A stretch of 37,880 bases of DNA from NCBI GenBank assembly GCA_016208425.1, contig JACQYA010000008.1, positions 1 through 37,880 on the forward strand, read 5' to 3'. The number at the start of each line of letters is the position of its first letter. Position 1 is the first letter of the stretch. Origin of the DNA: Betaproteobacteria bacterium (GTDB lineage: Bacteria; Pseudomonadota; Gammaproteobacteria; Burkholderiales; Rhodocyclaceae). The notes beneath the pieces are model-generated. The model was not told the DNA's origin, made no database searches, and was given only the letters and a program-made list of their open reading frames with translations. The position numbers were made by a program, and so were the translations under genes. Of the stretch, positions 7,412 through 21,809 are shown one piece after another.

Positions 7412-7804
7412 ATGGAAAAATCGCTTGTCGCCCTAGCACTGATCTTGTCGCCCCCGGCTTTCGCGGCCGAAAACCCCGTTCTCGAAAGCTATCGCGGCGC
7501 CGCAAAACAGGAATCCCCCGCCTTCAAGGACTTTTCCGCAGCGCGCGGACAAATGTTTTACCACGCGAAATCGGGCGAACTGTCGTGCGCGAGCTGTCAC
7601 ACCGAATCGCCGAAAGCGGAGGGGAAACACGCGGTCACGGGCAAGGAGATTCTGCCGCTGGCGCCGTCGGCCAACGCCGGGCGCTTCGGCGATCCGGCAA
7701 AGGTCGAAAAATGGTTCAAGCGCAACTGCAACGAGGTGCTGAAGCGCGCCTGCACGGCGCAGGAGAAGGGGGATTTCATGTCCTACGTGCTATCGGTCAA
7801 ATAG
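7412..7804 (+). CDS. shp: Sphaeroides heme protein (SHP), high-spin monoheme cytochrome c (DUF1924)
   Basis: A 130-residue secreted cytochrome: signal peptide about 1-18 (MEKSLVALALILSPPAFA), one heme c site CASCH at 59-63, and the C-terminal signature GKEILPLAPSANAGRF...WFKRNCNEVL. This closely matches Rhodobacter SHP, whose heme iron has an unusual asparagine axial ligand that swings away on reduction so O2 or NO can bind; here the equivalent is probably Asn105 next to Cys106, and Cys106/Cys114 could form the disulfide of that loop. Start ATG 7412 has AAGGAG seven bases upstream; an upstream extension in frame lacks a ribosome site and signal peptide. It is first in an operon with dhc and a b-type cytochrome, its known partners. 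Confidence 0.9.
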   Translation: MEKSLVALALILSPPAFAAENPVLESYRGAAKQESPAFKDFSAARGQMFYHAKSGELSCASCHTESPKAEGKHAVTGKEILPLAPSANAGRFGDPAKVEKWFKRNCNEVLKRACTAQEKGDFMSYVLSVK

Positions 7805-7813
7805 GAAAAGCGC

Positions 7814-8305
7814 ATGAAAATTGCTTTCAACCTCTTGCTCGCGCTGACGCTTGCTCCCTGGGTTGCGCTGGCCGACAGCGGCAACAAATACGGCGGCGAG
7901 AACCGCGGCAAGCCCCTGCAACCGGCCAAAGCGAGCGCCAGGTGGCAGGAAGAATGCGCGGGCTGCCACATCGCCTACGCGCCCGGCCTGTTACCGGCCG
8001 CATCGTGGCGCAAGGTAATGGCGTCGCTGGACAAGCATTTCGGCGCGGACGCTTCGTTGAGCGAGGCGGAAAACGAGGACATTACCGCGTTCCTGGTGAA
8101 CAACGCCTCCAACCGCTGGAGCGCAAAAAGCGCGCCCTTGCGCATCACCGAAAGCGCATGGTTCAAAGCGAAGCATGGCGCCAGGGAAATTGCGCCCGGG
8201 GTCTGGAAGCGACCGGCGATCAAAAGCCCGGCCAACTGCCAGGCCTGCCACGCCGGCGCGGCAAAGGCGGATTTCAACGAGCGCCGGATCAAGATCCCCG
8301 AATAA
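7814..8305 (+). CDS. dhc: Diheme cytochrome c (DHC), electron partner of SHP
   Basis: A 163-residue periplasmic cytochrome with signal peptide 1-20 and two heme c sites, CAGCH (48-52) and CQACH (142-146). The family features HFGADASLSEAE and LRITESAWF between the hemes match DHC, which passes electrons to SHP in purple bacteria. It starts nine bases after the shp stop. Its sequence is clearly paralogous to the C-terminal half of the next protein (same ASWRK.. KHFGAD, LRIT, CxACH landmarks), so the operon holds two DHC modules. Function as an electron carrier is known for the family; its donor here is inferred to be the adjacent cytochrome b. Confidence 0.9.
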   Translation: MKIAFNLLLALTLAPWVALADSGNKYGGENRGKPLQPAKASARWQEECAGCHIAYAPGLLPAASWRKVMASLDKHFGADASLSEAENEDITAFLVNNASNRWSAKSAPLRITESAWFKAKHGAREIAPGVWKRPAIKSPANCQACHAGAAKADFNERRIKIPE

Positions 8306-8324
8306 CGCACTCCCTCACCACACC

Positions 8325-9488
8325 ATGAAACGTATTCTCGTCTGGGACATCCCGACCCGCCTTTTCCACTGGCTGCTCGCCGCCAGCTTCGCCGTCGCCT
8401 GGGCCAGCAGCGGGTCGGACGAGTGGCTGTCGGTACACGGTTTCTCCGGCTACCTGATGCTGGGACTGATCGTCTTCCGTCTGATCTGGGGCGTCGCGGG
8501 AGGCAACTACGCCCGTTTTTCGTCATTCCGGCATGGGTCGCTAGCGGGACTGGCGTACCTGCGACAACTGCTGGCCGGCCACGCGCGGCGGCATATCGGC
8601 CATAACCCGGCGGGCGCCCAGGCGGTGTTCCTGATGCTCGCCCTCGGGCTGGCCGTCTGCCTGACCGGCGTCCTCACCCAGGGCGGCGAAGAAGGGCACG
8701 GTGCGGCAGCCGGCCTGACCGGGGTCGCTGTTGGCCGGCTGTTCAAGGAAGCGCACGAGATTGCGGCCACGCTGATGCTGCTCGTCGTCATCGGCCATCT
8801 GGCCGGCGTCGCGCTGGAAAGCTGGCGGCACAGGGAGAACCTGCCGCGCGCGATGATTACCGGCTTCAAGGAAGCGCCGGACGAGGCTCTGGACGATTCG
8901 CCGGCCTCGCGCCGCTACCCGCTGGTCGGCGCATCGCTCCTGCTCTCGGCGATCGCCTTTGGCCTGTGGTGGTTTTCCTACGCCCTGCCCGCCGCGCTTG
9001 CGCCAAAATCCACGGCAGACGGCGCAGCGCCGCAGGTCGCCTTCGTCGGCGCCAGGCTGCCCGACGATCCGCAGTGGCGGGAGGAATGCGGCAGCTGCCA
9101 CCTCGCCTTTCATCCCAACCTGCTGCCGGCGCGCTCGTGGCGCAAGCTGGTGGCCGAACAGGACAAGCATTTCGGCGCCGATCTGGCGCTCGATGCGCCC
9201 ACCGCCCAGGCGCTTCTCGTCTTCATGGAAAACAATGCGGCAGAACGCGGCCCGACGGAAGCCGCCTTCAAGATCGAACGTTCGCTGCGCGACGGCGCAA
9301 CGCCGCTGCGCATCACCGAAACCCCTTACTGGATCAAGAAGCACAAGGAAATTGCACCGGCCGACTGGCGCTTGCCGCAGGTCGACAGCCGGGCCAACTG
9401 CGCCGCCTGCCACCGGGATGCCGAGGCCGGAACCTTCGAAGACGCCGCGATGCACATCCCGAAAGCGGCGCCAAACGCGCGTTTTTGA
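8325..9488 (+). CDS. Cytochrome b561-type membrane protein fused to a C-terminal diheme cytochrome c domain
   Basis: A 387-residue fusion. Residues 1-220 are a di-heme cytochrome b561 (KRILVWDIPTRLFHWLL start; likely heme ligands His15, His38, His144, His158; helices near 13-30, 40-58, 97-117, 147-165) with a further helix at about 200-220. Residues 235-387 form a DHC domain with CGSCH (255-259) and CAACH (359-363). It would oxidise membrane quinol (or a similar donor) and hand electrons through its own c hemes to soluble DHC and then SHP. Start ATG 8325 follows dhc by 19 bp; the ribosome site is weak. The separate-gene version of this b cytochrome is known beside SHP/DHC; the covalent DHC is the notable point. 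Confidence 0.88.
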   Translation: MKRILVWDIPTRLFHWLLAASFAVAWASSGSDEWLSVHGFSGYLMLGLIVFRLIWGVAGGNYARFSSFRHGSLAGLAYLRQLLAGHARRHIGHNPAGAQAVFLMLALGLAVCLTGVLTQGGEEGHGAAAGLTGVAVGRLFKEAHEIAATLMLLVVIGHLAGVALESWRHRENLPRAMITGFKEAPDEALDDSPASRRYPLVGASLLLSAIAFGLWWFSYALPAALAPKSTADGAAPQVAFVGARLPDDPQWREECGSCHLAFHPNLLPARSWRKLVAEQDKHFGADLALDAPTAQALLVFMENNAAERGPTEAAFKIERSLRDGATPLRITETPYWIKKHKEIAPADWRLPQVDSRANCAACHRDAEAGTFEDAAMHIPKAAPNARF

Positions 9489-9605: not shown

Positions 9606-9633
9606 ACTATAGTGCTATGACTATAGTAATATG
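9606..9633. repeat. Tandem 14-bp repeat with paired ACTATAGT palindromes
   Basis: ACTATAGTGCTATG (9606-9619) is followed immediately by ACTATAGTAATATG (9620-9633); each contains the perfect palindrome ACTATAGT, one helical turn and a third apart. TATAAC/TATAGT are also -10-like. The site lies about 90 bp upstream of the chemoreceptor start and looks like an operator or overlapping promoters. The same octamer occurs at 22926. Confidence 0.5.
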
Positions 9634-9723
9634 GCCGACGATGGGAAGCGCCGGATTCTGTGGTTTGCGGAGCGCGAACTTTCCCGTTTGACGCCACCAA
9701 AAAAACAAATCGGGGAGCCAACG

Positions 9724-11823
9724 TTGAAGACCAATCTGCCAGTCACCCAGAAAGAAAAGCCCTATCCGGCGGGGTATTATCTGACCTCCAGAACCGATCT
9801 CCGGGGGATCGTGACCGATGCCAACGATGCTTTTGTCGAACTCTCGGGCTATTCGCGCGACGAGCTGGTCGGCCAGAGCCACAACATCGTCCGCCACCCC
9901 GACATGCCGCCGCAGGTTTTCGCGGATCTCTGGGGCACCCTGGGCGCCGGCTTGCCGTGGCGCGGGATCATCAAGAATCGCGCCAAGAACGGCGACCACT
10001 ACTGGGTCGAAGCCTTTGTCGTCCCCGTGGTCGAAAACGAACGCCGGGTCGGCTACATGTCGATGCGCTCGCAAGCCTCGCGCGCGGCGATCGCCCAGGC
10101 CGAGGCGAACTACCAGCGCCTGCGCAAGACGGGCGCGTCTTTCGACAACCGGCCGCCGATCTGGCGGCGCCTCACGATCCGGGTGCGGCTGCTGGCCGCG
10201 ATGGTGTTCATGGCGGTCATGATGGCCGGCGGCGGCGCCATCGGCGTCATCGGCATCGCCTTGTCCAACAGCGCGCTGGAAAACTGCTACCGGATCTCGC
10301 TGGAACCGATTGCGGCCATCGGACGGATCACGGCGCTGATGGCCGACAACCGCGCCCAGATCATGCTCGCGCTGCAGCACGACAGCAAAAACGCTTTTTC
10401 CGCGCTGCACGAGCACCCGGTGACGATGCATACCGACGCCATCGTCAAAAACCGGGACGAAATCAGCGCGCTGATCGGCGAGATGGACAAGCGCCCGCTC
10501 GCCGCCGGAATCGCCGCGCTCATGGAGCGCTACCGCATCGAGCGCGAGGCCTTTGTCGCCCAGGGGCTGGTTCCCGCCCGCCAGGCGATTCTCGACCAGC
10601 AGTTCGACGAGGCGAACGCTATCCTGCTGAAAGACATAAACCCGACCTACAAAAAGGCCGTCGGCGCCGCAGAAGAAGTGCAGGAGGCGCTGAAAAGGGT
10701 GGCGCGCGACGATTTTGCCGCCGCCGAGGAACGCTACCGGAACGTGCTTGCCCTGGCTGTCGGCGGCACGGCGCTGGCGCTGCTGCTGGTGGGCGTGGCC
10801 GCCTTTTCCCTGCTGCGCGCCATCGTCGAACCGCTGCGCCGCGTGATCGGCCACTTCGACCGCATTGCGCAGGGCGATCTGACCGAGCGCATCGACATTT
10901 CCGGGCGCGACGAAACCGGCCGGGTGCTCACCAAACTGGCCGGCATGCAGGTGCACCTGACGGTGATGCTCGACGAAATCCAGAGCGCCGCCAAGGTCAT
11001 CGAGCGGCAATCGATGCGCGTCGAATGGCAGACCGCCAGCGTGATGGATCAATCCGAACAACAGAGCGACCGGGCCAGCAGCGTGGTCGCCGCCACCGAA
11101 GAGTTCTCCGAGTCGATACGCGAGGTCGCCGATGCCGCTGCGGCCACGGCGGTTGCCGCCGAACAGGCCGAACTCCAGGTACACGCCGCCCAGACGAGCA
11201 TGGCGGAAAGCTCGGAGGCGACGGGGCGCGTCGTCAATGCCGTGCAAGCATCCAGCCGAACGATCAGCGACCTCAACCGATCCATCGAAAGGATCGGCGA
11301 CATCAGCCAGGTCATCAAGGAGATCGCCGAACAGACCAACCTGCTCGCGCTCAACGCCGCCATCGAGGCGGCGCGCGCCGGCGAGACCGGGCGCGGCTTT
11401 GCCGTCGTCGCCGACGAAGTGCGCAAGCTGGCCGAGCGGACGAGCAAATCGACGACCGACATCGCGGCGACCGTGGCGGATGTGCGGCGGGTCGCCGACA
11501 CTGCCGTCGTCACCATGGATCACGCCGTCACCGAAGTGGAACAGGGCATCGGCCTGATCCGCGACAGCGTGGCGGGGCTCAACCAGGTCACCGGCTCCAG
11601 CCGCGAAGTGACCGGCATGGCGCGCCACATCGCCAACGCCGCCCGCGAACAGTCGGCCGCCTCCGAACTGGTGGCGAGCAACATGGAGCGCATCGCCGGC
11701 CTGATCGACGGGAACCTGGAAGCGGCGCGCGAAGCCAAGGGCGCCACCGATTCGCTCAACGGCGCCGCCGGCGAGCTGCGGAGAGTCGTCGGCCAGTTCA
11801 AGGTGATCGAAGAAGCGGTTTAG
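9724..11823 (+). CDS. Aer-like PAS methyl-accepting chemotaxis receptor with an additional ligand domain
   Basis: About 699 residues. An N-terminal cytosolic PAS domain (roughly 15-110; [34 protein letters not shown]) resembles the FAD-binding PAS of Aer. A first membrane helix near 155-180 is followed by a four-helix-bundle-like extracytoplasmic stretch, a second helix near 340-362, a HAMP domain and the MCP signalling hairpin with [19 protein letters not shown] at about 535-553. Such receptors steer swimming by redox state. Start TTG 9724 is preferred: GGGGAG lies about seven bases upstream and it yields the family start MKTNLPVT; an in-frame ATG 31 codons earlier adds a poorly conserved extension. 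It lies between the SHP operon and the two-component genes. It lacks an obvious C-terminal NWETF CheR tether. Confidence 0.9.
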
Positions 11824-11859
11824 CGCCGGCGCCGCACCGCGTTTTCCGGGAGGGTGCCG

Positions 11860-12534
11860 ATGCGCGTTCTGATCGTTGAAGACGACCGCCTGCTCGGCGA
11901 GGGCATCCAGATGGGCCTGCGCCAGGCGGGCTGGCAGGCCGACCGGGTAAGCGATGGCCTGGCCGCGCGACACGCGCTGGCGGGCGAACCTTTTGCCGCG
12001 CTGGTGCTCGATCTCGGCCTGCCCCGTTTATCCGGCCTGGAAGTTCTCAAGGGGCTGCGCGCGGGCGGTAGCAAGCTGCCCGTACTGATCCTCACGGCGC
12101 GGGATACGCCGGAAGATGTCGTCGCCGGCCTCGACGCCGGCGCCGACGACTACGTCGTCAAACCCTTCAACCTCGGCGAACTGGCGGCGCGCCTGCGCGC
12201 CCTGGTGCGCCGCGCCGGGGGGCGCGCCGCATCCGAGCTGATTCACGGCGAGTTCCAACAATTGCGGCTCGATCCGGCGAGCCGGCGGGTTGTCTTTCGC
12301 GGCACCCCGGTCGATCTGTCGGCGCGCGAGTTCGATCTGCTGCACGAACTGCTCGACAACGCCGGCCGCGTGATGACCAAAGCGCAGCTCTCGGAACGCC
12401 TCTACGCCTGGGGCGACGAACTGGAATCGAACGCCATCGAGGTGCATATCCACCATCTGCGCCGCAAGCTGGCGCCCGAGCTGATCCGCACCGTGCGCGG
12501 CGTCGGCTACCTGATCCCCGGGCCAGGCCAGTGA
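11860..12534 (+). CDS. OmpR-family response regulator, PmrA/QseB subfamily
   Basis: A 224-residue regulator: receiver domain with DD at 8-9, phospho-acceptor Asp51 in LVLDLGLP and the conserved lysine in VVKPF near 103; C-terminal winged helix ending IRTVRGVGYLIPG. The start is ATG 11860 because GGGAGG lies six bases upstream; a GTG two codons earlier touches that site. It overlaps the kinase gene by four bases (GTGA). Subfamily members bind CTTAAT-N5-CTTAAT repeats, exactly what lies upstream of shp, so shp control by this regulator is a testable inference. Confidence 0.92.
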   Translation: MRVLIVEDDRLLGEGIQMGLRQAGWQADRVSDGLAARHALAGEPFAALVLDLGLPRLSGLEVLKGLRAGGSKLPVLILTARDTPEDVVAGLDAGADDYVVKPFNLGELAARLRALVRRAGGRAASELIHGEFQQLRLDPASRRVVFRGTPVDLSAREFDLLHELLDNAGRVMTKAQLSERLYAWGDELESNAIEVHIHHLRRKLAPELIRTVRGVGYLIPGPGQ

Positions 12535-13922
12535 GCGCGCCCGCCCGGCCGACGCCCTCCCCCGCCTACTCGCTGCGCCTGCGTATCCTGTTTGGCGTGC
12601 TGGCGGCGGTGACGGTCGCCTGGATCGTCGTTTCCTTCTTCGCGTATCGCGAGGCCAAGCACGAAGCCGAAGAGCTGCTCGACGCGCATCTGGCGCAGTC
12701 GGCGAGTTTGCTCTTCTCCTTTCTTGGCGACGAAGCTCATGAACTTGTAGAAGAAGAGCACGCTCCCCGCCACCGTTATGACAAGAAAGTCGCCTTCCAA
12801 GTATGGGAAGGCGGCAGCCGTCTCCTCACCCACTCGGAAAGCGCGCCCAATATCCGGCTATCGGCGAAGGACGAGGGCTTCTCGGATGTTTCCGTCGGAG
12901 GCAGAACATGGCGCGTATTCAGCACCTGGAACCCGGATCGCGACTATCTGGTGCAGGTCGCCGACGCAACCGGCAGCCGGGACGATGTGAGCCGACACAT
13001 CGCCTGGCGTTTGCTGACCCCCCTGGCCTTTGGCCTGCCCGCGCTGGGGCTGGCGCTGGGCGGTTTTATCGTCGCCGCCTTCCGCCCGCTGACGCGGCTG
13101 GCCGACCGGATTGCGACGCAAGCGCCCGAACGCCTGCAAGCGATCGACTTGCCCGGTGCACCCAGCGAAGTGCTGCCGATTCTCGAACGCCTGAACCGCC
13201 TCTTCGAGCGGGTGAACCGCACACAGGAAGAAGAACGGCGCTTTACGGCCGACGCCGCGCACGAGCTGCGCACGCCGCTCGCCGTAATGCAAACCTGTGC
13301 CGAAGTGGCGAGCGCGGCCGGCGACGACGCGGCGCGGCGGCACGCGCTCGACAATCTGCTGGCTGGCAGCCAGCGCGCGACCCGCCTGCTGGAACAACTG
13401 CTGATGCTCGCCCGGCTCGATGCCCGGGCCGAACTGTCGGGGATAGCGCCTTGCGATCTGCGCGCCATCGTCGTCGGTACGGTCGCCACGCTGATCCCGG
13501 CTGCGATGCGAAAAGGCGTCGAGGTCGAGGTCGACGAAGGCGCGCCGGTGCCGGTCGACGGTGCGCCGATGCTGCTCCAGGTGCTGGTCCGCAACCTGGT
13601 GGACAACGCCATCCGCTATACGCCGGCCGGCGGCAGCGTGCGCGTCGAATTTGAACTCGCGCATCCGCCGGAAAGCGGCGCCCGCCTGCGCGTCGCGGAC
13701 AGCGGCCCGGGTATCCCGCAAGCCTTGCGCGCCGAAGTCATGGGACGTTTTCGGCGGCTTGACGAAAGCGGCGAGGAAGGGCACGGGCTCGGCCTCTCCA
13801 TCGTTGCCCGCATCGCCGGGCTGCACGGTGCGCGGATCGCGCTGGGCGAAAATAAACCGGCCGGCGGTTTGAGCGTCTCGGTTGTTTTTGCCCCGGAAGC
13901 GGCGCCCGCGCGCCAAGAGTAG
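12531..13922 (+). CDS. Sensor histidine kinase, QseC/PmrB-like
   Basis: A 463-residue membrane kinase: first helix at about 16-38, periplasmic sensor region 40-158, second helix 160-184, HAMP-like linker, H-box FTADAAHELRTPLAV with phospho-acceptor His244, N-box around NLVDNAIRY, and ATP-lid motifs DSGPGIP and GHGLGLSI. It starts with GTG overlapping the regulator stop. Its periplasmic domain is acidic with several histidines (EEEHAPRHRY), which might bind a cation, but the signal is not deducible. Partner of the preceding regulator by overlap and domain pairing. Confidence 0.92.
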   Translation: MSAPARPTPSPAYSLRLRILFGVLAAVTVAWIVVSFFAYREAKHEAEELLDAHLAQSASLLFSFLGDEAHELVEEEHAPRHRYDKKVAFQVWEGGSRLLTHSESAPNIRLSAKDEGFSDVSVGGRTWRVFSTWNPDRDYLVQVADATGSRDDVSRHIAWRLLTPLAFGLPALGLALGGFIVAAFRPLTRLADRIATQAPERLQAIDLPGAPSEVLPILERLNRLFERVNRTQEEERRFTADAAHELRTPLAVMQTCAEVASAAGDDAARRHALDNLLAGSQRATRLLEQLLMLARLDARAELSGIAPCDLRAIVVGTVATLIPAAMRKGVEVEVDEGAPVPVDGAPMLLQVLVRNLVDNAIRYTPAGGSVRVEFELAHPPESGARLRVADSGPGIPQALRAEVMGRFRRLDESGEEGHGLGLSIVARIAGLHGARIALGENKPAGGLSVSVVFAPEAAPARQE

Positions 13923-13971: not shown

Positions 13972-15237
13972 ATGCTTGAAATTCATCGTATTGTTATCAA
14001 ACGCCTGTTTCTGGCCTGGCTGGCGCTGTCCATCGTCGCCGGAACAGCGATCTATATCTACGAGATCGAAAAGATCGACGACACCATCGTCGCGCACGCC
14101 GCCGCCGAAGCCGAGCGCTTCGCGCCCGATGGGATAGACACCGCCAGCCTGACCGCCGCCGAAATCGAAAGCCTGCGCCTGAAGGCACAGCACTTCATTA
14201 GCAAAAACTTCGTCGTCCTCGAAACCTACGATCAAAGCGAGAAAAAGCTGTTCGAGGCGGTCAACCCGGCGTACGAAGCGATTGAAAAAGAGCTGGCGAA
14301 AACCGCCCATCGTTTCCCCCGCGACGGCCAGCACCACTATGAAAGATTCAACATCGGCGGCGAAACGCTGGTGCGGATACTGATGCCTTTGACGGGCAGC
14401 GCGGGCGTAAGCGCCGGCTATTTCGAGGCCGTCTTCGTCGTCGACCAAGAAGAGCTGGCCCATTTGCAGGCCGATCTGGAACGCTTCGTGCTGATCGCTC
14501 TCCTGTGCGTGCTGGGAACGACGCTGCCCCTCTATCCCGTAATCATCTCTCTGAACCGCGACGTGCTGCGTTTCTCCAGCGAAGTCGTCAAGGGCAACCT
14601 GGACACCGTCTCGGTGCTCGGCACCGCGATCGCGCAACGCGATTCGGATACCGGCGACCACAACTATCGCGTCACGCTGTACGCGATACGGCTCGCCGAA
14701 GCGATCGGCACCGAGAAGATGGACATGCGCTCGCTGATTCTCGGCGCCTTCCTGCACGACGTCGGCAAAATCGGCATCAGCGACAACATCCTGCTCAAAC
14801 CCGGCAAGCTCGATGAAGGGGAATTCGCCATCATGCGCACCCACGTCGACCTGGGCGTCCGGATCATCGGCGCTTCGGCCTGGCTGCTGGCTGCGAGGGA
14901 GGTCATCGAATGCCACCACGAAAAATACGATGGCGGCGGCTACCCGCGAGGCCTGCGCGGCGAGGAGATCCCGCTGGTCGCGCGCATCTTCGCCGTGGTC
15001 GACGTCTTCGACGCCCTGACCTCGCGCCGCCCCTACAAGGAACCCTGGCCGTTCGACAAGGCGATGGACACCCTAGAACAAGACGCCGGCAGCCATTTTG
15101 ACCCGCGAGTGGTGGCCGCCTTCAAGACCTTCGCCGCCGCGCTGCACGCGGAAATCGGCAACGCCAGCGAGTCCGACCTTTCGGCGCGCATGAGGCCGCT
15201 GGTCGAACGCTACTACCTGCGCTCTCCGCCACGCTAG
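13972..15237 (+). CDS. Membrane-bound HD-GYP cyclic-di-GMP phosphodiesterase
   Basis: A 421-residue protein with a helix at 10-30, a periplasmic segment of about 140 residues, a second helix near 170-193, and a C-terminal HD-GYP domain with HDVGK at 262-266 and HHEKYDGGGYPRGL at 315-328. All metal-binding and GYP residues are present, so hydrolysis of cyclic-di-GMP is expected. Start ATG 13972 has GCGAGGA upstream at correct spacing; an upstream extension is open but lacks support. It follows the kinase by 49 bp and may be co-transcribed, tying redox sensing to motile/sessile choice. Confidence 0.9.
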   Translation: MLEIHRIVIKRLFLAWLALSIVAGTAIYIYEIEKIDDTIVAHAAAEAERFAPDGIDTASLTAAEIESLRLKAQHFISKNFVVLETYDQSEKKLFEAVNPAYEAIEKELAKTAHRFPRDGQHHYERFNIGGETLVRILMPLTGSAGVSAGYFEAVFVVDQEELAHLQADLERFVLIALLCVLGTTLPLYPVIISLNRDVLRFSSEVVKGNLDTVSVLGTAIAQRDSDTGDHNYRVTLYAIRLAEAIGTEKMDMRSLILGAFLHDVGKIGISDNILLKPGKLDEGEFAIMRTHVDLGVRIIGASAWLLAAREVIECHHEKYDGGGYPRGLRGEEIPLVARIFAVVDVFDALTSRRPYKEPWPFDKAMDTLEQDAGSHFDPRVVAAFKTFAAALHAEIGNASESDLSARMRPLVERYYLRSPPR

Positions 15238-15559
15238 CGGACACTCACCCTGAAACGCGCGGACGCCGTCGGAGCGGCCTTGGCCGTGAATCCGAAGCAG
15301 AACGGGCGCAACGTGTCGCGGACAGGTTTCGTCCAAGCATTTGATTGCTTGAGAGCCGATGCCATTTTGGGGCGCCTCGCAAAAACGGCGGATATTTTCT
15401 CGAATTTTCCGCCGATTTGATTTCCCTCAAACCCGCCGCCCCTTCCGGCCTCCCCCTGCGACGATATGCCGCAGAGTCGCCCCCGCCTTTTTCGTTACGA
15501 TTCGCCTCGCCTTGAAACAAGATAAACACCGGCGAGCGACGCAGGTTTACGGAAAAGCG
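15238..15559. other. Intergenic region with two hairpins, no gene seen
   Basis: This 322-bp gap separates the signalling block from the TonB cluster. Two inverted repeats are visible: CAAGCA/TGCTTG (15334-15351) and CGGCGGA/TCCGCCG (15386-15414, 15-base loop). Either could be part of a terminator for the HD-GYP gene or of a leader for the TonB cluster. No Fur box, cobalamin riboswitch box or strong promoter was recognised. Confidence 0.4.
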
Positions 15560-16090
15560 ATGGGATTGATTTACAGGAGTGGCACAATTTTCGGCATGCT
15601 GGCCGCGCTGCTGGCATCGGCGGCGCTGGCCCGTGCGGGAGATCGCGTCCCGTCGCCGGCCGGGGCGGCCGAAAACCGGGTTCGTCCGTTTGTCGCCGGA
15701 AGCCTGGCGGAGATCGTCGCCGCCCGCGCCGGCAAGCCTTTTGCGATGGCTTTCTGGTCGGTGGGCTGTGCGCATTGCCCGGCCGAGTTGAAAGCGCTCG
15801 GCGAGCTGAAGCGCCAATACCCGAAGCTGGATGTCGTTCTGGTCGCCGCCGATTCGCCGGACGAAGCGCCGGAGGCGGCGCGCTTGGCCGAGCGGTCTGG
15901 CCTTGGCCGCGTCGAACAATGGGTTTTCGCCGACCCGGTGCCGGAACGTCTGCGTTTCGAGATCGACAGACGCTGGCTGGGCGAGTTGCCGCGCACCCAT
16001 TTATACGACCGCCTGCACCGGCTCGAACCGGTGTCGGGCGTCGTTTCCCGGCGGAAGCTGGCCGCCTGGATTCGGGGGAATCCGCCTTGA
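15560..16090 (+). CDS. TlpA-like periplasmic thioredoxin-fold protein
   Basis: About 176 residues with a signal peptide (1-26, GMLAALLASAALARAG) and a thioredoxin fold whose active motif is CAHC at 70-73 in AFWSVGCAHCPAE. TlpA/ResA-type proteins reduce disulfides, for instance in apocytochromes or copper sites. The start chosen is ATG 15560, supported by a GGAAAA sequence; ATG 15596 is possible but would shorten the signal peptide. It overlaps tonB by four bases and is first in a TonB transport cluster, so it may keep cysteines of the secreted CxCC protein or the receptor reduced (inference). Confidence 0.8.
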   Translation: MGLIYRSGTIFGMLAALLASAALARAGDRVPSPAGAAENRVRPFVAGSLAEIVAARAGKPFAMAFWSVGCAHCPAELKALGELKRQYPKLDVVLVAADSPDEAPEAARLAERSGLGRVEQWVFADPVPERLRFEIDRRWLGELPRTHLYDRLHRLEPVSGVVSRRKLAAWIRGNPP

Positions 16091-16779
16091 CCCCAGAATT
16101 GAACGCCGGCGAATCGGCCGTGGCGGTCGCAGTGGCGTATTTCGCGCCGCCGGAGCAAGCGCGCCCGGCGTTCTGGCGGCGTTGCTTTTCCTTCGGCTCG
16201 GTGGCGGGCCTGCACTTGCTCGGCCTGCTGCTGGCGGTCGGTCTCGCCGTCCGGCCGGATCTCGCCCAACCGTTGCACGCGCTGACGGTGCGCGTGCTGG
16301 AAATCGCGCCGACGCCGCCGAAGGTCGAGCCGCCACGGCCGAAACCGGTGGCTCCGCAGCCCGAGGCGCCTCTTCTTCCGCCGCCTGTCCTGACGGCAGC
16401 CAGTACGGCGGCGACCGTTTCCACCTTTGCCGTCGCCCCGCAGCCCGAACCGCGCCCTGTCGAAAGCCATCCTGCGCCGCCGGCGGCGCTCCCCGTCGTC
16501 GCCGCGCGGTTCGACGCCGACTATCTGCAAAACCCGAAGCCGGTCTACCCCCCGATGTCGCGCCGCTTGGGCGAAGAGGGCAAGGTCATCCTGCGCGTGC
16601 GCGTCGGCGCGCAAGGCGCATCGCTGGCCGTGGACATCAGGCAATCGAGTGGCCACCCGAGGCTGGACGAGGCGGCGCGGGCGGCGGTCGAGAAATGGCG
16701 CTTCGTTCCCGCCCGCCAGGGCGGCGAAGCGGTTGAAGCCACCGTGCTGGTGCCGCTGCACTTCACGCTGGATCGTTGA
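16087..16779 (+). CDS. tonB: TonB energy-transducing protein
   Basis: About 230 residues: one membrane helix at 34-55, a proline-rich spacer (74-134; PTPPKVEPPRPKPVAPQP) and a TonB C-terminal domain (143-228) with NPKPVYPPMSRRLGEEGKV and FVPARQGG. It transmits proton-motive force from ExbBD to an outer-membrane receptor. The start is best placed at TTG 16087, which overlaps the upstream stop (TTGA) and has GGGGGAA close upstream; the frame stays open upstream inside the previous gene. Dedicated to the receptor two genes on, judging by order. Confidence 0.88.
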   Translation: MTPELNAGESAVAVAVAYFAPPEQARPAFWRRCFSFGSVAGLHLLGLLLAVGLAVRPDLAQPLHALTVRVLEIAPTPPKVEPPRPKPVAPQPEAPLLPPPVLTAASTAATVSTFAVAPQPEPRPVESHPAPPAALPVVAARFDADYLQNPKPVYPPMSRRLGEEGKVILRVRVGAQGASLAVDIRQSSGHPRLDEAARAAVEKWRFVPARQGGEAVEATVLVPLHFTLDR

Positions 16780-16812
16780 TCGTTGATGGTGCGAAGAGAA
16801 CATTTCCAAATT

Positions 16813-16880
16813 CGTCATTCCCGCGCAGGCGGGAATCCAGGGGAGCACCACTGGATTCCGGGTCAAGCCCGGAATGACGG
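16813..16880. repeat. REP-like CGTCATTCC...GGAATGACG intergenic repeat
   Basis: The 68-bp element starts CGTCATTCCCGCGCAGGCGG and ends CCCGGAATGACGG, with mirror-image halves around a CTGGATTCC/GGAATCCAG core. It is a widely dispersed bacterial intergenic palindrome; a related copy lies at 33155-33220. It separates tonB from exbB. Confidence 0.8.
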
Positions 16881-16917
16881 ATGTCTTATTTAGCCGGTTT
16901 GTCAAGGAGCGACAAAA

Positions 16918-17652
16918 ATGCCCGTTGAACTCGGACTCTCCCATTTCTGGGCGCAAGGCGATGCCGTCAGCCGCTCGGTGGCTGCGGTTCTCTTCCTGTT
17001 ATCGGTCGGAAGCTGGTATCTGGTGGCCGGCAAGATCGTCGCGCTGAGTCGGGCGCGGCGCTGCCACGCGCGGGCGCTGAACGCCTTCTGGGGCGCCGAT
17101 TCGTTGCCGGCGGCGGTCGACGCGCTGCGCGCCGAAGACCAGACCGGCATTCTCGCCAGCCTCGCCGTTGCCGGCGCCAACGCGGCGGAGCTGCATCGCC
17201 AGCATGCGGCACGCGGCATCGGCGCGGGCGTTTCGGCCAGCGAGTTCGTCACCCGCGCGCTGCGCAACCAGATCGTCGAGTCGCAGGCAAGCATCGAAAG
17301 CGGTTTGACCTTTCTCGCCTCGGTGGGATCGACGGCGCCGTTCATCGGCCTGTTCGGCACCGTGTGGGGCATTTATCACGCGCTGGTCGGTCTCTCCGGC
17401 GCCACCCAGGTGGTGCTCGACAAGGTCGCCGGGCCGGTCGGCGAAGCTCTGATTATGACGGCCGCCGGTCTCTTCGTCGCCATCCCGGCGGTGTTGGCCT
17501 ACAACGCCTTTACCCGCGGCAACCGCCTGACGCTGGCCCGCCTCGACGGTTTCGCGCACGATCTGCACGCCTATCTGGTGACCGGGCTGCGCGGCCGGCC
17601 CGGCGACAAGCTGGTCGACCTCGATGCGGCGCGTGTTGCGCGCAGCGCGTAG
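16918..17652 (+). CDS. exbB: ExbB/TolQ/MotA-family proton channel subunit
   Basis: A 244-residue inner-membrane protein with helices near 18-38, 133-155 and 175-195; the second and third carry the ExbB signature FLASVGSTAPFIGLFGTVWGI and the proton-path threonine region LIMTAAGLFVAIPA. With ExbD it powers TonB. ATG 16918 follows AAGGAG by eight bases. It is 138 bp after tonB, the gap being filled mostly by a REP-like repeat, so exbBD may have weaker or separate expression. Confidence 0.92.
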   Translation: MPVELGLSHFWAQGDAVSRSVAAVLFLLSVGSWYLVAGKIVALSRARRCHARALNAFWGADSLPAAVDALRAEDQTGILASLAVAGANAAELHRQHAARGIGAGVSASEFVTRALRNQIVESQASIESGLTFLASVGSTAPFIGLFGTVWGIYHALVGLSGATQVVLDKVAGPVGEALIMTAAGLFVAIPAVLAYNAFTRGNRLTLARLDGFAHDLHAYLVTGLRGRPGDKLVDLDAARVARSA

Positions 17653-17673
17653 GACATTGCAAGGAGCAGCACC

Positions 17674-18093
17674 ATGTCGTTCGGATCCTTCGACGAAGGC
17701 GGTCGCGCGCGGCCGATGGCCGAGATCAACACCACGCCGCTGGTCGACGTGATGCTGGTGCTGCTGGTCATCTTCATCATCACCGCACCGCTTTTCCACC
17801 AGGCGGTGCCCATCGACCTGCCGCGCGTCGATTCGGGCCGGCTCGACGATAAACCCCGGGTGGTCAGCCTGGCGCTGGACGGTAGCGGCGGTCTGTTTCT
17901 CGACGGCGCGCCGGCCAGCCGCGAGGCGGTTTATGCCCGCCTCGCCGAACTGGTTAAATTGGCCCCATCGCAGCCCGAACTCCACCTGCGCGCCGACCGC
18001 CTGACGCCTTATGAAAAGGTAGCCGACATCCTCGCCGTGGCGCAACGCGCCGGGGTGGCGAAAATTGCTTTTGTCACCGAAGCCACCCGCTAA
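17674..18093 (+). CDS. exbD: ExbD/TolR-family biopolymer transport protein
   Basis: A 139-residue protein with a short cytosolic N-terminus, a single helix at about 23-44 carrying the essential aspartate (Asp25 in TTPLVDVMLVLLVIF) and a periplasmic domain ending KIAFVTEA. It completes the ExbBD motor. It lies 21 bp after exbB and 36 bp before the receptor gene. Confidence 0.93.
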   Translation: MSFGSFDEGGRARPMAEINTTPLVDVMLVLLVIFIITAPLFHQAVPIDLPRVDSGRLDDKPRVVSLALDGSGGLFLDGAPASREAVYARLAELVKLAPSQPELHLRADRLTPYEKVADILAVAQRAGVAKIAFVTEATR

Positions 18094-18129
18094 AAAAACC
18101 GACCAACCCAAAAAATGGAGTCAGACGCC

Positions 18130-20562
18130 ATGATTCGCCAACCCGATGTGGTCGCGGCAAGCAATACCCGAAACCGGTTGTCGGCCGCCGTTGCGGCAAC
18201 GTTCGGCATTTTCTGTGCCGGCCATCTCGTCGCCGAGGAAAGCGAGGTCAAGCTCGGGGAAATGACCGTTTCGGCGGGCGCCGACAAACCTGCGACGCCG
18301 GCCAACGCGCCGAATACGGTGGAAAGCATCACCGCCAAGCAGATCGCCGAAAGCGTCAATTCGATGTCGTCGGCGGGTGCGCTGCTCTACCTGCCGAGCG
18401 TACATGTCCGCGAACGTTTCATCGGCGACGTGAACGGGGGGTTGGCGATACGCATGTACGGCGTCAATTCCAGCGCGGAAACGATGGTCTATGCGGACGG
18501 CCTGCTGCTCTCGAATTTCCTGACCAATAGCTGCTGCCCTGGCCCGCGCTGGGGCATGGTGCCGCAGGCGGCAATCGACCGGGTCGATGTCATGTACGGC
18601 CCGTTCTCCGCGCTTTATCCGGGAAACTCGGTCGGCGGCGTGGTGCTGATGACGACGCACATGCCCGACAAGTTTGAAGCGCACGCAAAGCTGGATGCCT
18701 TCGGCCAGAATTTCAAACTCTACGGAACGGACAAGAACTTTACCGGGGTGCATGGCGCCGCGACGCTGGGCGACAAGGTCGGCGACTGGTCGTTCTGGTT
18801 GAGCGGCGATCGCCTGGACAACCACAGCCATCCGACCGATTTCACGCCGGCCACCGCCAAGACGGGGGCTGCCGCCCCATTGGGGCAATACACCGTGGTT
18901 ACCGGCGCGCAATTCGACAACGATATCGCCAATAAAGCCCGGGTCACCACGGCCGCAACCAGCAGGGATCACACGGTGAAGAACGACGGCACGATCAAGC
19001 TGGCCTATGATTTTTCGCCGACGGTTCGCGCCACCTATACCTTGAACGTCTGGCAAAACACCTCCGATAAATTGATCGACAGCTATCTGAAGGACGTAGC
19101 GGGCAACACGATCTACGGTACCGGCACGACGGCAGGCCCTTACCGGTATGTGCGCATCGACGGCCGGGATTACTCGGTGACGGCGCCGAGCGTCAGCCAC
19201 GCCGACAGCGAATATCGCCTGCATGGGCTGGCGGTGAAATCGGCGAGCGGCGGAATATGGGATTGGGAGATCAATGCCAGCACTTTCAACCAGGTCAAGG
19301 ATGTCACCCGCGTCTCCTCGGGCAATTTCGGAACAACGCCCAGTGTCGATGCGACGGCCGGCACGATCGCCTTTGCCGACGGAACGGGGTGGCGGAATCT
19401 CGATCTGCGCGGTATCTGGCGACCCGATGGCAATCCGAAAAGCCGGCATCACATCAGTTTTGGCTTTCACACCGACACCTACACGACCCGATCGGATCAA
19501 TACGCCCTGGCGGCGGGAAATTGGGCGACCAGCGGTATCGGTGCGCTGAACACCAGTTCGCGCGGCGAAACTTCGACCGATGCGTTCTACGTGCAGGATG
19601 CCTGGCAGGTTTCGCCCGGCGTCAAACTGGTTTTCGGCGGACGCGAAGAGGTGTGGACGGCGTCGAACGGGAGCAACTTCGCCAACGGGACGAACGTCGG
19701 CTATCGGGACAATACCGTTCGCGCATTCTCGCCCAAGGCATCGCTTTCCTGGCAGGCGGCCCGCGATTGGACGCTGCGGAGTTCCTTTGGGCGCGGCGTG
19801 CGCTTCCCGACCGTCGGCGAGCTGTTCAAAAACGTCGGCATTACGGCGGTCGGCGGCGGTGCGGCGACTGCGGCGCAGATTGCCGGGTTTCCGGCGCCGT
19901 ATAACACCGCGCTGACCAACAACCCGAACCTCAAGCCGGAAACCGGCGACGGCTGGGAGTTTACCGCCGAACATTTTCTGGAGAACGGTGTCTGGCGGAC
20001 CTCGCTGTTCGGGGAGGAGAAGAAGGATGCGCTCGTTTCGCAGAGCGACATCACGACCTTGCCGGGGTTCAGCATCGGCAGCGTTCAGAATATCGACAAA
20101 GTCCGTTCCTACGGTATCGAAACATCCTTGCAGACCAGCGATATGGGGATACGCGGCCTCGATATTTCCGGCAGCGTGGCCTACGTCCATTCGCGGATTG
20201 CGAAAGATGTTGCGAACCCCGGGCTGGAGGGCACCGAGCTGCCGCTGGTGCCGGTCTGGCGCGCATCGATGCTGGGCGTCTACCATGCGTCGGATGCGCT
20301 TTCGGTCAGTCTGGGGTGGCGTTACAGCGGCAGGCAGCATAGCGGTCTCTACAACACGTCGACGCGGCAGTATCCCGACCCCAACCCGAACGTCTACGGC
20401 GGGCGCAGTTCTTTCAGCATCTTCGACGCCAAGGTCGTCTATAAAATCGCCCGGCAGTGGTCGGCCTCCGCCGGCATCGACAACATCGGCAATGCCAAAT
20501 ATTTCACCTTGTACCCTTATGCCCAGCGGACGTTTTTTGCCGGCGTGAAGTTCGACTACTGA
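18130..20562 (+). CDS. TonB-dependent outer-membrane receptor, substrate unknown
   Basis: About 810 residues: signal peptide to about 35, plug domain with NTVESITAKQIAESVN, the RMYGVNSSAETMVYADG segment and a YGPFSALYPGNSVGGVV hallmark, then a beta barrel ending in ...RTFFAGVKFDY with terminal aromatic. The start ATG 18130 has GGAG nine bases upstream; ATG 18115 lacks one. A Cys pair in SCCPGPRWG (about residues 134-142) within the plug is unusual for siderophore receptors. The GEMTVSAGADKP stretch is a TonB-box candidate region. Encoded with its own TonB-ExbB-ExbD. The substrate could be a metal complex, but no sequence motif settles it. Confidence 0.88.
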   Translation: MIRQPDVVAASNTRNRLSAAVAATFGIFCAGHLVAEESEVKLGEMTVSAGADKPATPANAPNTVESITAKQIAESVNSMSSAGALLYLPSVHVRERFIGDVNGGLAIRMYGVNSSAETMVYADGLLLSNFLTNSCCPGPRWGMVPQAAIDRVDVMYGPFSALYPGNSVGGVVLMTTHMPDKFEAHAKLDAFGQNFKLYGTDKNFTGVHGAATLGDKVGDWSFWLSGDRLDNHSHPTDFTPATAKTGAAAPLGQYTVVTGAQFDNDIANKARVTTAATSRDHTVKNDGTIKLAYDFSPTVRATYTLNVWQNTSDKLIDSYLKDVAGNTIYGTGTTAGPYRYVRIDGRDYSVTAPSVSHADSEYRLHGLAVKSASGGIWDWEINASTFNQVKDVTRVSSGNFGTTPSVDATAGTIAFADGTGWRNLDLRGIWRPDGNPKSRHHISFGFHTDTYTTRSDQYALAAGNWATSGIGALNTSSRGETSTDAFYVQDAWQVSPGVKLVFGGREEVWTASNGSNFANGTNVGYRDNTVRAFSPKASLSWQAARDWTLRSSFGRGVRFPTVGELFKNVGITAVGGGAATAAQIAGFPAPYNTALTNNPNLKPETGDGWEFTAEHFLENGVWRTSLFGEEKKDALVSQSDITTLPGFSIGSVQNIDKVRSYGIETSLQTSDMGIRGLDISGSVAYVHSRIAKDVANPGLEGTELPLVPVWRASMLGVYHASDALSVSLGWRYSGRQHSGLYNTSTRQYPDPNPNVYGGRSSFSIFDAKVVYKIARQWSASAGIDNIGNAKYFTLYPYAQRTFFAGVKFDY

Positions 20563-20573
20563 AAGAGGGCGCG

Positions 20574-21809
20574 ATGAATCGCAACCGTCGCAACTCCCGG
20601 TTTGGCGCCACCGTCTCGCTGGCTGCCCTGTTCTTTGGGCTGGCGGGCGCGGCGTTTGCCGCCGACATGGCGGCCACGCCGGGCATGGGCAAGAAAGCGA
20701 AAGTCGAGCTTGGTAGTTCGGCAGCGTTTGAACCGGGAGGATCTTTGCTCGCGGTGACCCAGCAGGGCGAGCATCTGTTGCTCTACCGCAGCAGCGATGA
20801 AGGCGCCAACTGGTCGGCTCCGGTTGTCGTCAACGCGCAGCCGGAAGCAATTTCGGCCGACGGCGAGAACCGTCCAAAAATCGCTTTTGCACACGATGGC
20901 GGCGTGCTGGTCTCGTGGACGAAGCCGCTCGGCAAGCCCAACACCGGGGAAATACGCCTGGCGCGCGCGGACGACGGCGAACATTTTTCCGCGCCGATCA
21001 CGGTGCATCGGGATCGCGCCGAAATCACGCACCGTTTCGAGTCGATGCTGGTAGCCCCCGACGGCAGGGTGCTGCTCGCCTGGATCGACAAGCGCGACCT
21101 GGAACAGGCAAAGGCGGCCAAAGCGGCCAAGGAGGCAAAAGAAGCGTATCGCGGCGCGGCGATCTATGCCGCCGTATCGACCGATGGCGGGCGCAGTTTC
21201 CAGCCGGAAAGAAAGCTGGCCGATCACTCTTGCGAGTGCTGCCGGCTGACCTCGGCGAACGATGCGGACGGCACGCCGCTCTTCATGTGGCGACACGTTT
21301 TTGCGCCGAACGAGCGCGATCACGCCATCGTCCGCGTCAAGCCCGATGGCTCACCGGAGGCGTTGCAGCGCGCCACCTTCGACCGCTGGAAAATCGACGG
21401 TTGCCCGCACCACGGCCCGTCGCTCGCCGTCGATGCCGCCGGTGTCCGGCATGCGGTCTGGTTCAACCGGAAGGACGGCGAAAGCCGCGTCTTCTACGGT
21501 CGTTTGGAGCCCGGCAAGGAAGAAACGACGGTGGCCGGGCAGCGAACGGTAGGCGGCGCGCGCGCCGAACACGCCGATCTGGCGGTGGCCGGGCGTCGCG
21601 TCGCGGTCGTCTGGAAAGAATTCGACGGCGAGCGCGCCCGGATATGGGCCGAGATGTCGGACGATGGCGGGCTGACCTTCCGCGCGCCGCAAATGCTGGC
21701 CGATTCCGCCGGCTCTTCCGACCAGCCCAGGGCGCTGGCGCGCGGCGCTACGCCTTACGTCTTTTGGCGCACCGAGCGCGAGGGAATGCGCGTTTTTTCG
21801 TTGCGGTAG
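20574..21809 (+). CDS. Secreted BNR/sialidase-like beta-propeller with CxCC and CPHHG motifs
   Basis: About 411 residues with a signal peptide (1-29) and several Asp-box repeats (SSDEGANW, STDGGRSFQ, SDDGGLTFR) of the sialidase/BNR propeller superfamily. Catalytic sialidase arginines were not identified, so glycosidase activity is doubtful. Two motifs stand out: SCECCR with cysteines at 220, 222 and 223, and CPHHG at 277-281; clustered Cys and His suggest a metal site. A lysine/alanine-rich insertion (AKAAKAAKEAKEA) precedes the first. It starts 11 bp after the receptor gene with an AGAGGG site, so the two belong together. Tentative role: periplasmic partner of the receptor, perhaps metal-related. 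Confidence 0.75.
   Translation: MNRNRRNSRFGATVSLAALFFGLAGAAFAADMAATPGMGKKAKVELGSSAAFEPGGSLLAVTQQGEHLLLYRSSDEGANWSAPVVVNAQPEAISADGENRPKIAFAHDGGVLVSWTKPLGKPNTGEIRLARADDGEHFSAPITVHRDRAEITHRFESMLVAPDGRVLLAWIDKRDLEQAKAAKAAKEAKEAYRGAAIYAAVSTDGGRSFQPERKLADHSCECCRLTSANDADGTPLFMWRHVFAPNERDHAIVRVKPDGSPEALQRATFDRWKIDGCPHHGPSLAVDAAGVRHAVWFNRKDGESRVFYGRLEPGKEETTVAGQRTVGGARAEHADLAVAGRRVAVVWKEFDGERARIWAEMSDDGGLTFRAPQMLADSAGSSDQPRALARGATPYVFWRTEREGMRVFSLR

Follow-up and report, generated by a model that had tools for sequence, protein, structure and literature searches.

In Rhodobacter sphaeroides and five other named species, the sphaeroides heme protein (SHP) is encoded together with a soluble diheme cytochrome c (sDHC) and a chimera in which a cytochrome b (CytB) is fused to a second, membrane-tethered diheme cytochrome c domain (mDHC) (Meyer, Kyndt and Cusanovich 2010, PMC2909971). 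In the available parts of that paper, the only one with the SHP operon as its subject that an open-access literature search returned, electrons are proposed to pass from quinol to CytB and then via mDHC and sDHC to SHP; the electron transfer from DHC to SHP has been demonstrated (Gibson 2006, as cited there), a nitric oxide (NO) dioxygenase activity of SHP has been reported (Li 2008, as cited there), and a QseC-related kinase (SK2) was noted in 12 SHP operons. Here we describe an SHP locus of a Betaproteobacteria bacterium of the Rhodocyclaceae, which lies at positions 7412 to 9488 of a window of 37,880 nucleotides, the window being the whole stretch of DNA analysed (contig JACQYA010000008.1, positions 1 to 37,880). 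The locus is a new example of the known SHP system, and as the layout and the core of its reading were already published in 2010, its value is comparative: it lies in a larger set of CytB/mDHC fusions, in evidence that points to a single origin of the fused domain in the sampled groups where several had been thought likely in 2010, in fusions that keep only one c-type haem, and in a flavin-type partner of SHP and DHC. The interest of the locus is modest, and is raised somewhat by these one-haem fusions and by the flavin-type partner.

The SHP gene (DUF1924, 7412..7804, plus strand) begins with ATG and codes for 130 residues with one CxxCH, a predicted asparagine as the sixth haem ligand and, judged by eye, an apparent signal peptide. 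After a gap of 9 bp it is followed on the same strand by the gene of the free sDHC (7814..8305), which has 163 residues, two CxxCH and, again by eye, an apparent signal peptide, and 19 bp further on by the gene of the fused CytB-mDHC, a polypeptide of 387 amino acids (8325-9488, plus strand) that consists of a b561-type cytochrome b part (8325..9071) and the diheme domain (9072..9488, stop codon included). The open reading frame (ORF) of the fused protein opens already at 8175, and the start that it has in common with its relatives (MKRILVWD) is at 8325. From strand and spacing, the three genes would be carried on one transcript; a scan for promoters and terminators gave 2 promoter-like sites with 0.7 expected, and this result was not used. 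An earlier note, made from the letters of the DNA, had read SHP, a free DHC and a b561-DHC fusion side by side at this place, and Pfam domains and ORF coordinates agree with it: SHP matches PF09086 (E 4.9e-38), sDHC matches PF09626 (E 3.5e-35), and the fused protein combines PF01292 (b561, E 2.4e-23, over the family cut-off) with PF09626 (E 1.6e-38). Relatives in the PDB are 1dw0 and 1e8e (SHP/cytochrome c'') for SHP and 2fw5, 2fwt and 3u99 (DHCs of Rb. sphaeroides and Shewanella baltica) for both DHC domains. At E <= 0.001, SHP was matched once and DHC twice in the genome assembly (96% complete), in each case at this locus, and no further SHP or DHC was found. The asparagine ligation of the SHP haem, which the earlier note had also given, agrees with the residues of the predicted ligand site, where a tryptophan lies four residues before the asparagine and a cysteine pair after it (W, N, C, C); the asparagine is retained in 185 of 187 SHPs overall and in all 28 SHPs at fused loci.

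As far as the operon of Rb. sphaeroides is described in the accessible text, it shares with the window the three parts, the fused CytB/mDHC, the proposed chain and the asparagine-ligated SHP with its tryptophan and Cys-Cys neighbours. The two differ in gene order, which is SHP-sDHC-CytB/mDHC in the window and CytB/mDHC-SHP-sDHC in Rb. sphaeroides, and in their surroundings, as the window has a QseBC-like pair, a chemoreceptor and an HD-GYP-like protein downstream, whereas the Rb. sphaeroides operon is described, in the same parts of the text, without regulators. Closer in order is the chimera of Rhodoferax ferrireducens, a member of the beta class in which SHP precedes CytB as it does in the window (compared by the published description as available; Meyer 2010, PMC2909971).

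SHPs (PF09086) are present in 113 of 199 genomes of the same family and in 86 of the 398 genomes of a phylum sample. For the survey of loci, 160 were taken from these SHP searches, 15 were named loci, and a search that used the fused protein as query supplied 20; the genes were typed with profiles built from the window. From the same family, 111 of the 132 matches outside the window were used (in 110 loci), and from the phylum sample 50 of 89 further matches, hand-picked over families, the omitted ones being partly weak or fragmentary; L237, which lies on the same contig as L062, was dropped from the counts. SHP was found in 186 distinct loci, the window included, and 28 of these are fused: 23 have a full CytB-DHC, four have half a DHC, and one (L244), which ends at a contig edge, was placed with the half fusions by the kinship of its CytB. 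The set of SHP, sDHC and fusion thus recurs. Its 28 loci are an enriched set, since the fused protein itself also served as a query; in the samples taken by SHP only, the fusion is present in 3 of the 111 loci of the same family, counting the window, and in 10 of the 50 from the phylum. In a sample of 399 genomes of the order, that of the window included, seven have a full-length fusion in one frame, four have the complete short form and one has the form that is cut. The fusions of this order and of the named relatives lie after SHP (13 full, 5 short), and ten fusions from other classes lie before SHP, as in Rhodobacter; among the latter is L224, whose SHP match lies after CytB and which had been typed as 'after SHP' due to an over-long SHP frame. 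The other classes are those of genomes of the same phylum, presumably mostly alphaproteobacteria given the Rhodobacter-like gene order. In L195, L200 and L225, CytB is fused to SHP itself; a CytB-SHP fusion has been described for Rhodospirillum rubrum in the available text of Meyer 2010 (PMC2909971).

Over 133 amino acids, the free DHC of the window and its fused counterpart share 42% identity (BLASTP, E 1e-33), which is far above chance. Both contain two CxxCH and two distal histidines, and the landmarks SWRK, KHFGAD, LRIT and CxACH that had been pointed out earlier can be read in both. From these the earlier note had derived a duplication with fusion. That a duplication underlies the two domains stands, but it was not an event of this operon. 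In a tree of 117 DHC rows, with 64 representatives of the 159 sDHCs from unfused loci, all 23 full fused domains, from this order and from other classes, are on one side of a branch (Shimodaira-Hasegawa-like approximate likelihood ratio test, SH-aLRT, 96), and in a more careful tree of 60 rows, the unfused ones hand-picked, this branch has a support of 93/93, with 94% of bootstrap trees in agreement. A sister relation of the window's free and fused DHC, as would result from local duplication, was rejected by the approximately unbiased (AU) test (p 0.0225), and so was a clade in which the free DHCs of this order join its fused ones (AU p 0.0004, for a group chosen after the first tree). Because the fused DHCs group together and the sisterhood of the window's DHCs is rejected, the duplication predates this operon, and the fused domain has one origin within the sampled groups, which did not contain the Rhodoferax and Campylobacterota chimeras. 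It is from members of just these groups that multiple origins of the fusion were thought likely in the accessible part of the 2010 account (Meyer 2010, PMC2909971). The CytB tree, which is unrooted, speaks against a simple history of this kind, as it does not unite the full fusions as one group (4 changes): 18 fused CytBs (13 full, 5 half) group at a support of 100, and the wider fused set takes in 11 CytBs without a fusion, most of them from this order (supports 83-90). This would agree with mDHC having been lost later, or with an old mDHC having been transferred more than once. A local duplication of DHC is seen elsewhere, in a Gallionella metagenome-assembled genome (L069 from 7881), where a single ORF between SHP and an unfused CytB contains two tandem DHC domains that are sisters in the 117-row tree.

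The earlier note had further expected the fusion to form a fixed wire of five or more haems from the membrane to SHP. The fused polypeptide has two CxxCH (residues 255 and 359), and its membrane part has four histidines (15, 38, 144 and 158) that are conserved in all 23 full and all five half-fusion CytBs, so that the chain is predicted to carry four haems, two at c sites and two of b type; sDHC with two haems and SHP with one are separate proteins. The count of haem sites thereby rules out a fixed five-haem wire. Both haem c signatures and both distal histidines are retained in all 23 full fused DHCs. The number of haems is lower still in the half fusions, in which CytB ends in the second DHC half only and which come from five genomes, all of a single genus in another family: four complete proteins (L243:6543-7412, L245:6530-7399, L246:7048-7941 and L247:6808-7701) combine CytB with the C-terminal haem half of DHC, having one CxxCH and its distal histidine, and the fifth (L244), a presumed half fusion, is cut by the contig end. 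In L246 the half fusion covers positions 55-116 of the 116 positions of the Pfam DHC family. As the CytBs of the half fusions nest inside the group of full-fusion CytBs, it is likely that the half fusions arose by loss of the first haem domain, and their natural occurrence means that a wire of fixed haem number is not required. An AlphaFold model of a half fusion has values of the predicted local distance difference test (pLDDT) of 53-72 from residue 211 on, and no fold is claimed for it. The model of the window's fused protein (pLDDT 86.9, predicted template modelling score 0.83) consists of five long helices in the b561 part, with four helices above the hydropathy threshold, and a DHC domain that matches 2fw5 (Z 14.1); the free sDHC was assigned by sequence only. 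The membrane part is like the cytochrome b of FdnI (1kqf_C, Z 13.8) and the E. coli superoxide oxidase (5oc0, Z 12.8) in fold, and these matches span residues 1-194 and 4-182 of the model only, with the C-terminal diheme domain outside.

A b561 cytochrome is not the membrane partner at every SHP locus. Within 2.5 kb of SHP and on its strand, 44 of the 186 loci have no b561, and in 39 of these 44 a frame of a ferric-reductase/NOX-like flavocytochrome is found 3' of DHC on the same strand, 432-677 amino acids long as opened (for example L229:6228-7547 and L121:6170-7480 and L123:6149-7624, all on the minus strand, and L090:8892-10214 on the plus strand, with 35 further loci). A gene of this type occurs in only one of the remaining 142 loci. 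In 18 of the 39 loci the flavocytochrome is more than 40 bp away from DHC, sometimes after a small PepSY_2 protein. Pfam matches of four flavocytochromes are over the cut-off for Ferric_reduct and the FAD-binding domain in all four, and for NAD_binding_1 in two, with a third just under it. The best PDB match of one of them is 8qt6 (deposited as FAD-binding FR-type protein), which we take to be SpNOX, and dual oxidase 1 and NOX5 also match. Unlike the b561 fusion, these enzymes are flavin based, and they are absent from the window locus. The flavocytochrome loci also have a divergent response regulator within 1.5 kb (35 of 39) and a match to a PepSY profile within 3.5 kb (35 of 39). Since the SHPs of all 39 loci form one group (support 86), the flavin-type partner is probably the result of a single replacement. 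The architecture of the window had been taken to restrict the possibilities to a quinol-driven reduction of a small ligand in the periplasm, and this restriction is not supported, as 39 of 186 loci have a flavocytochrome and no b561 beside SHP, and the sequence fixes no ligand. In Meyer 2010 (PMC2909971) the words NADPH, ferric and chemotaxis are absent; the open-access literature search gave no relevant paper on the flavin-type partner, which is not meant as a wider claim that this partner is unpublished.

That a chain runs from the b561 cytochrome through two DHCs to SHP, as the earlier note had it, is supported; like the Asn/Trp ligand signature of SHP and the duplication that underlies the two DHC domains, it had already been put forward in Meyer 2010 (PMC2909971). 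Layout, domain identities, the conservation of haem and ligand residues, the grouping of the fused DHCs, and the replacement or loss of parts in relatives were obtained directly, and the reading that we favour, and regard as reasonably probable, is that of a CytB/mDHC-chimera SHP operon in which quinol feeds CytB, mDHC, sDHC and SHP in this order, followed by binding of O2 and/or NO, under QseBC-like control. The b561 cytochrome would take electrons from quinol as its presumed donor and deliver them, on the other side of the membrane, to the periplasmic mDHC of the same polypeptide, from where they would flow to sDHC and on to SHP; reduced SHP would then drop its predicted asparagine ligand and bind a small molecule, with O2 and/or NO as the likeliest candidates, and NO dioxygenation or NO removal would be the favoured use. 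The flavin-type partner argues for a membrane partner that feeds electrons into DHC and SHP. It likewise bears on the opposite direction of flow, in which the b561-DHC fusion would collect periplasmic electrons from SHP, sDHC or superoxide and reduce quinone, like the E. coli superoxide oxidase that its membrane part resembles in fold; CybB presumably belongs to the same Pfam family as the window's b561. Such a reverse flow is improbable, as in 39 loci the b561 is replaced by an enzyme of the NOX kind, and such enzymes, in the part of the source available, are said to move electrons outward, and as direct reduction of SHP by DHC is cited in the accessible text of Meyer 2010 (PMC2909971).

As to the ligand, co-occurrence was examined in the 199 genomes of the same family. 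The cd1 nitrite reductase domain (PF02239, E <= 1e-50) is present in 89 of 113 genomes with SHP vs 38 of 86 without (Fisher p 7e-7), and with one genome per genus (the first 68) in 31 of 37 vs 14 of 31 (p 0.0017); the genome of the window carries it as well. Cytochrome bd, taken as control in place of a reductive dehalogenase that was useless for this purpose (0 of 199 genomes), gave no such association in these genomes and pointed in the opposite direction, with 39 of 113 vs 40 of 86 (p 0.11), or 9 of 37 vs 14 of 31 with one genome per genus (p 0.08). The co-occurrence of SHP and cd1 fits and favours a role in NO chemistry, as a correlation and no proof. It would not be predicted if SHP instead served as a periplasmic oxygenase or in a defence against metal or redox stress, where reduced SHP would activate O2 and oxidise an amine or another small substrate, and where metal or redox stress would be the inducer rather than NO. 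This alternative we regard as unlikely, yet it has its own evidence: an oxygenase role has been proposed and Czc metal-transport neighbours have been noted in some species (Meyer 2010, PMC2909971, in the parts available), and among the genes of Allochromatium vinosum that are most induced on pyrite are Alvin_0022 (DUF1924), the diheme cytochromes Alvin_0023 and Alvin_0020, the b561 Alvin_0021, the regulator Alvin_0025 and the efflux genes Alvin_0013 and 0014 (PMC11267869, as far as available).

Several further points weigh against the chain with NO as its target. The cd1 association was corrected for phylogeny only by taking one genome per genus, 24 of the 113 genomes with SHP have no cd1 domain, and PF02239 presumably also covers relatives of the nitrite reductase. 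For the membrane part, the Foldseek E values are only 0.012 (1kqf_C) and 0.28 (5oc0), the notes of the aligner caution that helical bundles near Z 13 may have merely a common arrangement, and the superoxide oxidase, which is also matched, operates the other way round. As probably a single replacement, the flavin-type partner counts as one data point and not 39. In the table of pyrite-induced genes of A. vinosum, the DUF1924 gene ranks second (+7.1 log2; PMC11267869, a text in which the term 'SHP' is absent), and this induction speaks for metal or redox stress and not for NO.

Downstream of the fusion, signalling genes follow on the same strand. After 142 bp there is a methyl-accepting chemotaxis receptor with PAS, TarH, HAMP and MCPsignal domains (9631..11823), which from strand and spacing may belong to the operon, then an OmpR-type response regulator (11854..12534), a sensor histidine kinase with a 2CSK_N sensor (12531..13922), SK2-like in the terms of Meyer 2010, and, 49 bp 3' of the kinase, an HD_5 (HD-GYP-like) protein that begins with a membrane part (13972..15237). 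The best NCBIfam matches of the two-component pair are QseC (282.5 bits, cut-off 475) and QseB (236.2 bits, cut-off 345), both below cut-off, and this QseBC-like pair probably controls the operon. With these neighbours it is conceivable that the locus serves redox or gas sensing, the ligand state of SHP being read by the chemoreceptor, the kinase and the HD-GYP-like protein, and full-length HD-GYP-like homologues are indeed found in 4 of the 28 fused loci (window included), and among the remaining 158 SHP loci in 2 (Fisher p 0.005, or 0.023 without the seed window; a partial homologue in the fused locus L063 was not counted). In the close fused relatives L063-L066, however, the regulator comes directly after the fusion, and no chemoreceptor intervenes (in L063 one is located farther downstream). 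Only 5 of 186 loci have a chemoreceptor within 300 bp of their cytochrome genes, and the genes for electron transfer also recur in loci from which these signalling genes are missing. We regard sensing as very improbable. The 5 loci are not clearly above the roughly 3 expected, a hand estimate from 25 MCP matches in the window's own genome, and chemoreceptor linkage was thus discarded as a special feature; no function is built on the signalling neighbours. In L240 and L242, the gene of the HD-GYP-like homologue separates the fusion from the regulator. A cluster of its own lies further downstream in the window (15359-21809); it encodes an ExbB-like protein and a TonB-dependent receptor, along with a protein that has a CECC stretch and BNR matches below threshold, and one may guess at metal uptake.

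Taken over all loci, SHP and DHC may tentatively be seen as a periplasmic module that runs on interchangeable inputs: a plain b561, a b561 with the diheme domain of single origin, a b561 with the second haem only, a b561 joined to SHP, or an NAD(P)H-driven flavocytochrome. This is a view to which we give a little less credence than to its opposite; if it is true, the fused diheme domain would be an old adaptor that was invented once and whose first haem is dispensable. It is these natural variants that make the route and the direction of the electron flow to SHP testable by comparison.

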